Assembly: GCF_040958095.1 (NCBI RefSeq)
Contig: NC_091209.1
Coordinates: 8,089,032 to 8,153,031 of the forward strand
From: Procambarus clarkii
Lineage: Eukaryota; Arthropoda; Malacostraca; Decapoda; Cambaridae
Direction of reading: 5' to 3'
DNA: 64,000 nucleotides
The position numbers and the translations under genes were made by a program. Shown here in pieces: positions 2,154 to 30,298 of this stretch. Below the pieces are notes generated by a model. That model was not told where the DNA came from. It saw only the letters and a program-made list of their open reading frames with translations, and searched no databases. Each line of letters starts with the position of its first letter. The first letter of the stretch is position 1.

Positions 2154-2345
2154 TATATATATATATATATATATATATATATATATATATATATATATAT
2201 ATATATATATATATATATATATATATATATATATATATATATATATCACTAAGAACTCTTTGACCCGGCCAGGATTCGAACCCATGCCGTCCAGGATCAC
2301 CCCTAAACGTACACAGTACCGTGACCACCGCACCAATGATCGTTA
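2154..2345 (-). mobile_element. tRNA-derived SINE head with (TA)n tail, unit 1
   Basis: On the minus strand a tRNA-like head reads GGTGCGGTGGTCACGG (A-box-like) followed by GGGTTCGAATCC (a consensus RNA polymerase III B box). A short body then runs into a (TA)n tract at 2154-2247. This layout is typical of tRNA-derived SINEs with a microsatellite tail. The left end is lost in the N gap. Confidence 0.7.
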
Positions 2346-3059
2346 GACGATATACTTGTTGTTATTGTTATAAACAGCCTCCTGGTGCTTCGGTGGTCAT
2401 TAACTCTTTAATAATTGTAAACAAAGCCGCCAAAGATTGAGAAAAGATGTACAGGTTCGTAAGTGCTTGCGGAATTGCTTCATGAATCCGGGAAATATAC
2501 AGTACTTGTTAAGCTCAACGAATGACCAACGCTGTCGTCAAAGTCAGCGTTGATACTTATTGAGTATATGTTGAAAAACAAGTGGTGTGTGTAGAGAAAC
2601 ACTAAATTGAGAGTAGACATTATTCCAGATAACTTACCATCAGTAGTTCGTGAATATTTGTACATTCAGAGGTCTAGCTGCTTATATGAGGAGACGAAGA
2701 GCGAGATCAACGCGGCCTCAGACCAGTGTGGCTTAAAGTTTAAATATTTTAAATTCATATTTTTCTGTTGGACTCCAGGTTGTGCAACTTTTAGCATATC
2801 GTAGTCAATGGGTTAAGATTCAGCTTCGATTCTGTTGTCCGGCTGCAAAAAGTTTCTCAAACATGTCACATTATTGTGATTTCATTGTATATCGGAAGTT
2901 CTTGATTCGGATGAGGGAGTAGTAGTACTCAAGTGGTGCTATTTTACATGTTATTGTCGGAACACACATACTAATTATCTCTCCCCTCGGTAGACGTCTT
3001 TCACTAGACAAGTGATTGTCCTCCTAACAGAACGTCGCATACCTTACCCGAGGCCGAAA
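2346..3059. repeat. Unit 5' region, no gene recognised
   Basis: Non-coding stretch present in all five units. Open frames of 60-65 codons occur on both strands but are short and have no recognisable domain. It contains pieces that I recall as dispersed decapod repeats (around 2360-2480), but I cannot name a family. Nothing else is seen. Confidence 0.5.
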
Positions 3060-3435
3060 ATCGTTGCACTAGGAGCCCATCCAAGGCTCCTATATATTAT
3101 CACCCAATCCCACTCATATACATATCCAACCCACGTTTGAAACAATCGAGGGACCCCTCCTCCACCACATTATGTGGTAATTAGTTCCACAAGTCAACAA
3201 CCGGTTTTTGTTGATTTGTGGAACCAATTGCCGCGTAACGTGATGGAGGTTGGGTCTCTCGATTGTTTCAAGCGTGGGTTGGACATGTATATGAGTGGGA
3301 TTGGGTGATTATAAATAGGAGCTGCCTCGTATGGGCCAATAGGCCATCTGCAGTTACCTTTGTTCTTATGTTCTTATAAATAGGAGCTGTCTCGTATGGG
3401 CCAATAGGCCTTCTGCAGTTACCTTTGTTCTTATG
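3060..3435. mobile_element. LINE 3' ends in inverted pair, unit 1
   Basis: The plus strand from about 3205 encodes remnants of the C-terminus of a non-LTR retrotransposon ORF2 (VDLWNQLPRNV, then LDCFKRGLDMYM), followed by a 3' tail with GGCCAATAGGCC and TTCTTATG-type repeats. The block at 3060-3190 is an inverted partial copy of the same sequence, giving a foldback of roughly 120 bp per arm. The tail segment is repeated twice (3316-3375, 3376-3435). Assignment to a CR1/L2-like clade is from memory of the C-terminal motif. Confidence 0.7.
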
Positions 3436-3765
3436 TTCCTATTGAGGGTTACAAGAGAGCTAATGGACATAACAAAGGGAATATTAATTGGGTATTAAAA
3501 GTATCATCACGATACAGAACTCGAAACATTGGGTATAAACTGGATAGGTTTATATTTCGGAAAAACCTGGGTAAATACTGGTTCGGTAACACGGTTGTTG
3601 ATTTGTGGAATCAATTACTGCGTAACATAATAAGAGTAGGGTCCCTTGATTGTTTCAAGCGTAGGTTGGACATATATATGAATGAGATTAGGTGGTTTTA
3701 AATAGGAGTGGCCTCGTATGGGCCAATAGGTCTTCTACCGTTACCTTTATTCTTATTTTTTTGCA
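3436..3765 (+). mobile_element. Second LINE 3' end fragment, unit 1
   Basis: Encodes remnants of YKLDRFIFRKNLGKYWF, then VVDLWNQLL and LDCFKRRLDIYM: the C-terminal tail of a CR1/L2-like non-LTR ORF2. It is followed by TATGGGCCAATAGGTC and a short TTCTTATTTTT tail. It is more diverged from the first fragment than the five units are from one another, so it was inserted before the unit was amplified. Confidence 0.65.
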
Positions 3766-4013
3766 AAAGAACATAAAATAGATCACTTGCCTTGAAAACA
3801 TAGATTAGTTCCTGATACTAAATAATATCCGAAATTTAAAGCCAAAAGAGTTCAAATTTATGTGCAAATTTTCGAAGTAAGGTAATAGGTTTGTTTTTAT
3901 AATTTGTATTCTAGAAACTTATTTTTAATTAATAACAAGTGAGGCAGCGTGAAGCAGCCAGCACATGTACCTCAATCTCCAGGCATGTCACGTCACCTCG
4001 TCCTAGCGCGACC

Positions 4014-4057
4014 TATATATTAACTTCCAAACAAGAATTAGTTATTCATTTGCAGTT
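4014..4057 (+). promoter_or_regulatory. Candidate core promoter of UBE4-like gene
   Basis: A TATA-like TATATATTA lies at 4014-4022 and initiator-like TCATT/GCAGTT at 4046-4057, about 30-40 bp downstream. The first ATG of the gene follows at 4110 with a good Kozak context (A at -3, G at +4). The same arrangement is kept in all units. Inferred from spacing only. Confidence 0.35.
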
Positions 4058-27838: not shown

Positions 27839-28018
27839 AATATATATATATATATATATATATATATATATATATATATATATATATATATATATATATA
27901 TATATATATATATATATATCACTAAGAACTCTGACCCGGCCAGGATTCGAACCCATGCCGTCCAGGATCACCCCTAAACGTACACAGTACCGTGACCACC
28001 GCACCAATGATCGTTAGA
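27839..28018 (-). mobile_element. (TA)n and tRNA-derived SINE head, unit 5
   Basis: (TA)n of about 80 bp followed by the same SINE head on the minus strand. Confidence 0.7.
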
Positions 28019-28730
28019 CGATATACTTGTTGTTATTGTTATAAACAGCCTCCTGGTGCTTCGGTGCTCATTAACTCTTTAATAATTGTAAACAAAGCCG
28101 CCAAAGATTGAGAAAAGATGTACAGGTTCGTAAGTGCTTGCGGAATTGCTTCATGAATCCGGGAAATATACAGTACTTGTTAAGCTCAACGAATGACCAA
28201 TGCTGTCGTCAAAGTCAGCGTTGATACTTATTGAGTATATGTTGAAAAACAAGTTGTGTGTGTAGAGAAACACTAAATTGAGAGTAGACATTATTCCAGA
28301 TAACTTACCATCAGTAGTTCGTGAATATTTGTACATTCAGAGGTCTAGCTGCTTATATGAGGAGACGAAGAGCGAGATCAACGCGGCCTCAGACCAGTGT
28401 GGCTTAAAGTTTAAATATTTTAAATTCATATTTTTCTGTTGGACTCCAGGTTGTGCAACTTTTAGCATATCGTAGTCAATGGGTTAGGATTCAGCTTCGA
28501 TTCCGTTGTCCGGCTGCAAAAAGTTTCTCAAACATGTCACATTATTGTGATTTCATTGTATATCGGAAGTTCTTGATTCGGATGAGGGAGCAGTAGTACT
28601 CAATGGTGCTATTTTACATGTTATTGTCGGAACACACATACTAATTATCTCTCCCCTCGGTAGACGTCTTTCACTAGACAAGTGATTGTCCTCCTAACAG
28701 AACGTCGCATACCTTACCCGAGGCCGAAAA

Positions 28731-29441
28731 TCGTTGCACTAGGAGCCCATCCAAGGCTCCTATATATTATCACCCAATCCCACTCATATACATATCCAAC
28801 CCACGTTTGAAACAATCGAGGGACCCCTCCTCCACCACATTATGTGGTAATTAGTTCCACAAGTCAACAACCGGTTTTTGTTGATTTGTGGAACCAATTG
28901 CCGCGTAACGTGATGGAGGTTGGGTCTCTCGATTGTTTCAAGCGTGGGTTGGACATGTATATGAGTGGGATTGGGTGGTTATAAATAGGAGCTGCCTCGT
29001 ATGGGCCAATAGGCCATCTGCAGTTACCTTTGTTCTTATGTTCTTATAAATAGGAGCTGTCTCGTATGGCCAATAGGCCTTCTGCAGTTACCTTTGTTCT
29101 TATGTTCCTATTGAGGGTTACAAGAGAGCTAATGGACATAACAAAGGGAATATTAATTGGGTATTAAAAGTATCATCACGATACATAACTCGAAACATTG
29201 GGTATAAACTGGATAGGTTTATATTTCGGAAAAACCTGGGTAAATACTGGTTCGGTAACACGGTTGTTGATTTGTGGAATCAATTACTGCGTAACATAAT
29301 AAGAGTAGGGTCCCTTAATTGTTTCAAGCGTAGGTTGGACATATATATGAATGAGATTAGGTGGTTTTAAATAGGAGTGGCCTCGTATGGGCCAATAGGT
29401 CTTCTACCGTTACCTTTATTCTGATTTTTTTGCAAAAGAAC
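28731..29441. mobile_element. LINE 3' end block, unit 5
   Basis: Same foldback pair and second LINE 3' end as in unit 1. One G is missing in the GTATGGGCCAATAGG tail near 29069. Confidence 0.66.
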
Positions 29442-29778
29442 ATAAAATAGATCACTTGCCTTGAAAACATAGATTAGTTCCTGATACTAAATAATATCCG
29501 AAATTTAAAGCCAAAAGAGTTCAAATTTATGTGCAAATTTTCGAAGTAAGGTAATAGGTTTGTTTTTATAATTTGTATTCTAGAAACTTATTTTTAATTA
29601 ATAACAAGTGAGGCAGCGTGAAGCAGCCAGCACATGTACCTCAATCTCCAGGCATGTCACGTCACCTCGTCCTAGCGCGACCTATATATTAACTTCCAAA
29701 CAAGAGTTAGTTATTCATTTGCAGTTGGTTGCGTGTTGGAACAATTTCTACTGTCAGTCTGTCACACGTTCCGAGACA

Positions 29779-30298
29779 ATGGATACCACTGCTGCAGATG
29801 ATTATTTTCCTAGTCTTCCACTATCGATCTTAGTCGACGTAATGAACCTCGGTGAAGGATTTTCTGGCGACAAAATGTTAGAATTTATTGACAAATCAAA
29901 AGCCATTCTTAATGACTTGCATAATAACGATTCTACGATGTTATTCACTAGCAGCGTACAACTTGGAATTTTGTGCGCATTAACTCTCTCCATGCGTACG
30001 ACGTCGGTCAAGATGACGGGGCAATGGGAAGATGTCCTTTGGGGAATTATTGACCTAGCACCATCTTGTGAGCCTGATAATGACATCAATTTAAGCGCAC
30101 TCGAGTCTGTCGTGAAGCCCTGGATACTAACAATGTTCGCAGACCCAGAGATGTGCCCTAACCCGTACCTGCGTCTGAGAATGGTTTCACTTAATCCACA
30201 TTTGGCCAGAGACTTTCTTACAGGATGCCGCCTCGGGAATGCAAGCAGCTGCAGGCCTTGTGATCAACGAAAATATATGGATCGCGATCATTTATGTA
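29779..30298 (+). pseudogene. UBE4-like gene, copy 5, partial (runs into gap)
   Basis: The first 173 codons of the UBE4-like gene. Identical in frame to the other copies through LRLRMV. An extra T near 30184 and a missing G near 30269 then offset each other, leaving about 29 altered residues before the frame returns at KYMDRDHLC. Both indels lie within 120 bp of the N gap, so low-quality sequence at a contig end is as likely as real mutation. The rest of the gene is in the gap. Confidence 0.7.

Follow-up and report, generated by a model that had tools for sequence, protein, structure and literature searches.

UBE4 usually exists as one or two housekeeping genes, and the locus described here raises the question of why a short, single-frame relative of it should stand in a crayfish genome as a tandem array. 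The window, by which we mean the whole stretch analysed, comprises 64,000 nt of Procambarus clarkii (NC_091209.1 of assembly GCF_040958095.1, positions 8,089,032-8,153,031, forward strand). Positions 2154-30298 of it form a tandem array of five head-to-tail units of about 5.46 kb, each carrying one single-frame gene of 439 codons (surrounding open frame, 496 amino acids) with a UBE4-type U-box. On the strength of the sequence comparisons set out below, we consider it probable (roughly 0.6) that the window holds a recently amplified branch of a very large, single-frame family of UBE4-derived E3 ubiquitin ligases with a shifting recognition task.

The units open with (TA)n and begin at 2154, 7611, 15743, 22393 and 27840, an uneven spacing of 5457, 8132, 6650 and 5447 bp. 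They are 98.8-99.7% identical over their aligned parts, the head-to-tail, near-identical arrangement of a tandem satellite-like gene array. A palindromic 260-bp repeat array spanning 2.65 kb follows unit 2, and an internal duplication of 1.19 kb in unit 3 produced a sixth, 5'-truncated gene copy. The array block is exactly one contig, with 500 N on either side (1654-2153 and 30299-30798). Its copies differ by 1.64 per kb within the gene and by 4.1-5.1 per kb elsewhere in the unit. The units and genes are as follows:

2154..7610, + strand: tandem unit 1, opened by (TA)n at 2154-2246
4110..5429, + strand: U-box gene copy 1, open throughout its 439 codons, with residues 365-435 (5202-5414) forming the U-box
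5607..5612, + strand: AATAAA, candidate poly-A signal of copy 1
7611..13092, + strand: tandem unit 2, 99.4% identical to unit 1
9573..10892, + strand: U-box gene copy 2, frame broken by one G missing directly after the ATG and an extra base later
13093..15744, no strand: 260-bp repeat array between units 2 and 3, with inverted halves 13093-14286 and 14297-15744
15743..22392, + strand: tandem unit 3, with the internal 1.19-kb duplication (junction 19206-19210)
17712..19031, + strand: U-box gene copy 3, open
19206..20214, + strand: extra 5'-truncated U-box gene copy from the internal duplication in unit 3
22393..27839, + strand: tandem unit 4
24341..25660, + strand: U-box gene copy 4, open
27840..30298, + strand: tandem unit 5, incomplete at the 500-N gap
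29779..30298, + strand: U-box gene copy 5, with two single-base insertions or deletions, cut by the gap

An initial annotation of this DNA had described the block as the tandem amplification of a divergent, intronless UBE4-like U-box gene, with five head-to-tail units and a 439-codon gene in each that is open in copies 1, 3 and 4. The unit starts and identities bear out the array, uneven as its spacing is, the frame check confirms the genes, and the array and the U-box match together uphold the amplification. The hidden Markov model search that it had proposed for the U-box was likewise positive (Pfam, E 3.8e-12, residues 365-435).

The array is one part of a far larger set of sequences, and in this respect the initial annotation was right that an amplified family exists and set its extent too small, the window array being one subfamily among hundreds of loci. 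All counts from the genome search (4,027,284,227 bases) include relics, so that they are not totals of working genes, and candidates are not to be equated with genes. For the window subfamily, a 44-mer from the U-box gave 299 matches with at most 3 mismatches and a 45-mer from the 3' untranslated region gave 241, and since the reversed patterns gave 0 the array is not a product of chance. The tandem spacing of about 5.4-5.9 kb recurs on C35, C55, C58, C60, C77, C79, C109 and C122 and on many small contigs, and a spacing of 1183-1184 bp, the mark of the truncated duplicate, recurs on C35, C58, C60 and C77. In a search with the window protein, the best 96 of 1284 candidates, scored as the best by design, were all 99-100% identical and 95 of them stop-free. 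The wider family is visible through a U-box 30-mer, with 726 matches at 3 mismatches or fewer (controls 0), and through a U-box profile with 901 first-look candidates. The best 150 of these were scored, and 94 of them lie in open frames of at least 430 amino acids; among the 150 are exons of the two native genes, UBE4A and UBE4B, and perhaps of further U-box genes, so that not every match need belong to the family. Leaving aside those native exons and one short exon on C71, the scored matches lie on at least 28 scaffolds. A search with the distant member L104 returned 1297 candidates and 94 scored matches (some of them pieces of one gene), of which 88 are stop-free, on at least 21 scaffolds; together the U-box and L104 lists cover at least 42 scaffolds, and at least 63 when the window-protein search is added.

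Seventeen members fetched from these lists share 36-66% of their residues with the window protein, and all but one have a single frame of 432-471 codons from the start codon within the fetched stretch. The exception is L103, with 291 codons; the edge of the stretch was reached before a stop in six members (L096, L101, L103, L104, L105 and L107). Open frames in the family run to about 440-540 codons, and tandem arrays occur on many scaffolds. Three loci deserve separate mention. In the L107 cluster (C29:26201336-26222624) the open frames around the U-box matches measure 813, 852 and 1022 amino acids and so seem to reach well past the U-box. A separate cluster of a distant subfamily at C13:5336049-5502828 has 25 matches on one strand, many of them about 5.3-5.4 kb apart and 22 stop-free. 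Finally, L055 (C19:2842882-2844241) is an old 308-bp relic from the window subfamily, with 11 differences and one stop, lying in gap-free minisatellite DNA; a second copy of this relic lies 94 kb off in inverse orientation.

The relationship to UBE4 is clearest in the U-box. Pfam detected this domain in all 18 family members compared, and no second Pfam family besides Ufd2P_core was matched by more than two of them. The solved U-boxes nearest to the window protein are those of UBE4B, yeast UFD2 and UBE4A, and a profile of the 18 members matched the same three among the solved structures (UBE4B 7e-15, yeast UFD2 1.4e-13, UBE4A 5.5e-13), with plant PUB12 following at 0.09. The window U-box aligns to that of native UBE4A 14.7 standard deviations above shuffled sequences. 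For residues 1-362 against the UBE4A core the corresponding values at two gap costs are 3.1 and 3.7 standard deviations, scores reached by 9 and 1 of 1000 shuffles, respectively. The similarity in the core is weak and colinear, and we take a Ufd2 origin of the front half to be likely.

Native UBE4A (on C92) and UBE4B (on C27) were located elsewhere in the genome, each matched piecewise by many separate segments spanning 12-19 kb, whereas the sampled family members are single-frame and without the N-terminal half. Along the stretch corresponding to the window gene, native UBE4A matches with five breaks between pieces, which we take as introns; these putative introns of the parent are absent from the window gene, as in a processed retrocopy. 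UBE4 and UFD2 proteins have an N-terminal variable region and a full length near 1000 amino acids. The window protein of 439 amino acids has neither this region nor this length, and the loss of the N-terminal half, which the initial annotation had noted, holds for the sampled members as well. Which of the two native genes was the parent is not settled: UBE4A was a first guess from the spacing within the U-box, but this was not upheld, as the U-box exon of UBE4B scores above that of UBE4A in 17 of the 18 members, the window protein being the exception.

The sequence upstream of the genes bears on how the family spread. The promoter candidate of copy 1 is:

3988..4026, + strand: core promoter candidate, with TCACGTCAC, containing a half-site of the cAMP response element (CRE), at 3988-3996 and CCTATATATTAACTT at 4012-4026

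Both blocks are present in all five window units, the TATA block of copies 2-5 lying at 9475, 17614, 24243 and 29681. Among 17 members, for each of which 116-200 upstream bases were scanned, a TATA-like site lies at -78 to -117 from the start codon in 8 (2.0 expected in shuffles), and a CRE half-site 15-23 bp further upstream in 4 (0.96 expected). An alignment of nine members gave the common consensus TCTCCAGG-ATCTCACGTCACCTC-CCTAGC-GACCTATATATTAACTT and a common start region, TTATTCACTTGCATTTGGTTG; a bacterial promoter scan is uninformative for a crayfish genome. Retroposition copies RNA, in which the promoter is not expected, and members that share promoter DNA should therefore have a common descent at the DNA level. 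For at least 8 of the 17 sampled members, the spread thus appears to have proceeded through duplication of DNA, regardless of how the family began. The initial annotation had proposed a retrocopy that gained its own promoter. The promoter stands as a candidate, and a retrocopy as the first step would fit the missing introns of the parent.

Selection differs markedly between the two halves of the protein. In a 17-member set (the partial L103 was left out of the tree, the fits and the promoter table), codon model M0 puts the ratio of nonsynonymous to synonymous substitution rates (omega, or dN/dS) at 0.252 in the U-box and at 0.733 in the core. Fixing omega at 1 worsens the fit by 56.6 and 21.7 log-likelihood units, respectively, the core differences being approximate because tree length was left unchanged between fits. 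Pairwise estimates by the Nei-Gojobori method (NG86) on 11 pairs range from 0.29 to 1.21 for the core and from 0 to 0.57 for the U-box. In four independent close pairs the ratio of nonsynonymous to synonymous proportions (pN/pS) is 0.36 for the U-box (p 1.6e-7) and 0.79 for the core (p 0.0017). Over segments of 30 residues, pN/pS is highest at 301-330 (1.79), followed by 181-210 (1.18) and 241-270 (1.08), whereas segment 121-150 has a low of 0.48; these values come from seven close pairs that share members, and the ratios above 1 are descriptive. In a neutral simulation at 0.17 substitutions per site, 0.1% of frames stayed open, and W1 and L101 are both open at 0.34 synonymous substitutions per site (dS). 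The U-box is under strong purifying selection, and the front half is fast-evolving but not neutral, with weak constraint and fast segments.

The recent copies of the window subfamily were sampled separately. Among 100 of the 299 places that were listed, 43 copies (36 fetched, seven already in the set) were chosen as two interleaved every-fourth series in which a few places were exchanged for others, and the six window copies were added (n = 49). Loci L001-L030 were left out of the selection counts because they had been picked by protein identity, except for L004, L006, L009, L010, L013, L014 and L016, which lie at sampled places. Among the 43 sampled copies the gene is intact in 29, while 6 have lost part of it (in one case no more than 12 bases), 5 have a frameshift and 3 are interrupted by nonsense changes; within the intact set there are two net in-frame insertions, one 18-base deletion and one copy unaligned over its first three bases. 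Changes unique to single copies among the 49 comprise 41 synonymous, 78 missense and 5 nonsense (expected, 32, 87 and 4.4). A smaller count on 22 copies gave an omega of 0.55 (p 0.02).

These observations could be joined as follows. The founder would have been an old copy without introns, derived from the C-terminal half of either UBE4A or UBE4B and equipped with a promoter of its own; DNA mechanisms such as unequal crossing-over and segmental moves would then have duplicated it repeatedly. The U-box would still recruit E2 ubiquitin-conjugating enzymes and the helical front half would bind quickly changing substrates, a division that we propose because of the selection pattern and the known role of U-boxes, so that members would act as E3 ligases whose recognition task keeps shifting. 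Within the window subfamily, a recent burst may have outrun selection on single copies and led to near-neutral decay.

Several results weigh against this interpretation. The initial annotation had called the product UBE4-like in both its U-box and its Ufd2 core, and the core half of that claim is borne out weakly because the window protein gave no Pfam match to Ufd2P_core up to E 10, so that the search proposed for this domain failed. Across the 18 members the domain was matched weakly in 6 (best E 0.02), and when hhalign was used to compare the core of the family with those of the native genes, the NPYLR motif alone was recovered (probability 1.1%, P 0.048; reversed template, 0.2% and 0.3). 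AlphaFold on the single window sequence, without an alignment, reached a predicted local distance difference test score (pLDDT) of 42.5. Residues S372 and T374 are invariant in the family U-box, whereas the native UBE4A and UBE4B carry P and M at these positions; because of these family-specific changes activity is something that we infer. A TATA-like site was not detected in 9 of the 17 upstream stretches within the 116-200 bases scanned. Whole-core omega exceeds 1 in 2 of the 11 pairs and is 0.98 in one, and in these three pairs a value near or above 1 fits relaxation as well as adaptation. Lastly, omega among the window-subfamily copies is 0.71 (p 0.08), near neutral, and these change counts mean that constraint among the recent copies is weak at best. 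The dN/dS comparison suggested by the initial annotation thus gave values other than 1 between distant members (0.25 for the U-box, 0.73 for the core) and an almost neutral one among near-identical copies.

The near-neutral differences also speak for genomic drift, in which the gene would be a passenger of tandem-repeat amplification and the family would expand and contract through unequal crossing-over, having hardly any function and with most copies becoming pseudogenes. Together with the 14 of 43 sampled copies that are broken (6 truncated, 5 frameshifted, 3 nonsense), the roughly 99% identity of the units and the truncated-duplicate spacing repeated on four sequences (C35, C58, C60 and C77), they make drift an unlikely alternative, though the least unlikely of those considered here; it accords poorly with the frames that stay open between subfamilies where neutral sequence would hold several stops, and with the U-box omega of 0.25. 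A more improbable proposal is that the truncated proteins are decoys that would sequester E2 enzymes or the partners of UBE4 and thereby damp the pathway of the native protein. The missing N-terminal half and the invariant DS-x-T in place of DP-x-M would suit such a role, but DPF-x-R and the hydrophobic position of the U-box are conserved among members under purifying selection, and the fast change of the front half would be left unexplained. The conserved U-box, as judged from sequence, does not favour a loss of activity.

Two further explanations concern the surroundings of the genes rather than their products, and both seem to us very improbable. The gene could be the cargo of a mobile element or virus, as its dispersal over many scaffolds and a Polinton-like element about 5.6 kb past the right edge of the array might suggest. 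Many members nevertheless stand in tandem arrays, and because a scaffold gap separates the array from the Polinton, a link between them was set aside. Pattern-led scans found no relative in IMG/VR (queried with the single protein and with the 18-member alignment) or in GTDB genomes, and neither a viral origin nor a prokaryote origin or contamination was retained. Least probable of all is an assembly artefact, with one array assembled repeatedly and placed at several scaffold gaps. All five array edges that were deliberately inspected (two in the window and three at L052-L054, on C79 and C122) end in 500 N, and 6 of the 30 loci with the best protein matches contain N stretches; however, the copies carry different variants, the proteins of the other 17 members diverge by 34-64%, and the relic L055 lies in gap-free sequence. 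As the edges are 500-N gaps, the chromosomal position of the arrays is the scaffolder's statement, and misassembly could make the figure of 299 too high or too low and affect its placement. A recently amplified branch of a UBE4-derived ligase family therefore remains the interpretation that we prefer. A bolder extension of it would make several hundred intronless E3 ligases a germ-line repertoire against selfish DNA, drivers or pathogens, with the window subfamily of about 300 copies as a dosage weapon or suppressor in intragenomic conflict and the U-box repertoire of this genome among the largest of any organism. We regard this as a doubtful proposal, though a less remote one than the decoys; the CRE-like plus TATA promoter found in part of the family is presumably of the kind known from germ-cell genes.

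The remainder of the window is rich in repeats. Beyond the array gap, a 168-bp satellite (1-1653) is 91.6% identical over 1.68 kb to one on C79 (L052, 1-3583), and the U-box array may truly adjoin this satellite. Within the units, stretches at 3086-3760, which we take to resemble the C-terminal end of the reverse transcriptase of a long interspersed nuclear element (LINE), are repeated per unit, with pieces 82-93% similar beyond the gap in L053. The 260-bp repeat also occurs as two copies adjoining the Polinton (52044-52552); it looks like a tRNA-derived short interspersed nuclear element (SINE), but ARAGORN detected no tRNA, and the tRNA origin was not upheld. Large minisatellites surround the array and the Polinton (30799-33490, 59225-59828 and 61920-64000), with a GC-rich unit of about 62 bp and a 20-bp unit, AGCGAGCACCCACAGGTGTG. 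The Polinton/Maverick-like element itself (35929-51589) has inverted terminal repeats, with 41-48-bp repeats at 35929-36406 and 51256-51589 and 69-bp repeats inside. Its integrase core, Pox_A32-type ATPase and type-B DNA polymerase lie above the Pfam cut-off and a chromo domain below it. The polymerase region consists of two overlapping frames, 45016-45801 (no Pfam match) and 45713-48121, and three further frames have no Pfam match. A second set of Polinton-end repeats outside the element (57951-59181; 69-bp and 42-48-bp units) is perhaps a solo end or a nested copy.

An assembly of 4.03 Gb and 2n = 188 are cited for P. clarkii (PMC12842422). An entry labelled UBE4B in its gonad transcriptome (PMC4132113) has a size of 1,526 and matches a fluke at E 1e-8, whereas a genuine UBE4B transcript would be expected to give a much stronger match to an arthropod. 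The length and score fit a member of the present family (estimated mRNA, about 1.6 kb), and the entry is a candidate transcript of it. The main text of a paper on duplicated genes in this species, as far as it was accessible, does not contain the word "ubiquitin" (PMC10371857). A published account of an intronless UBE4-derived family in crayfish was not found among the records listed by a literature search that left subscription journals and preprints mostly uncovered. Genes of this kind resemble repeats and may be masked, which is a warning for annotation. The family offers a natural series for the study of substrate change in a U-box ligase, and in its large tandem array the birth, conversion and decay of copies are measurable.

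Among known systems, Stellate-type arrays of Drosophila likewise consist of a truncated housekeeping paralogue in hundreds of near-identical tandem copies, although another gene is involved. The F-box and MATH-BTB superfamilies of plants and nematodes are large, fast birth-and-death sets of ubiquitin-ligase parts that also combine a conserved recruiting domain with a changing substrate side; they are adapters of cullin ligases, whereas the crayfish U-box should itself recruit E2. The nearest published case that we found is that of Formica ants, in which UBE4B was multiplied, F. selysi having 62 copies of which 42 lie in a supergene, with core domains under purifying selection and signs of diversifying selection in other regions (PMC13251583). 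Both are expansions of the UBE4 family in one arthropod lineage, with purifying selection on part of the protein and faster change elsewhere. The ant proteins span 300-1300 amino acids, while the crayfish genes are single frames of about 440-540 codons at hundreds of loci, in tandem arrays and with a TATA promoter common to some of the members, and the two expansions are presumed to be of independent origin. Hundreds of short, intronless UBE4-derived ligases in a crayfish would form a second and larger case beside that of the ants and would open a direct approach to the reasons for which UBE4 is multiplied in arthropods.

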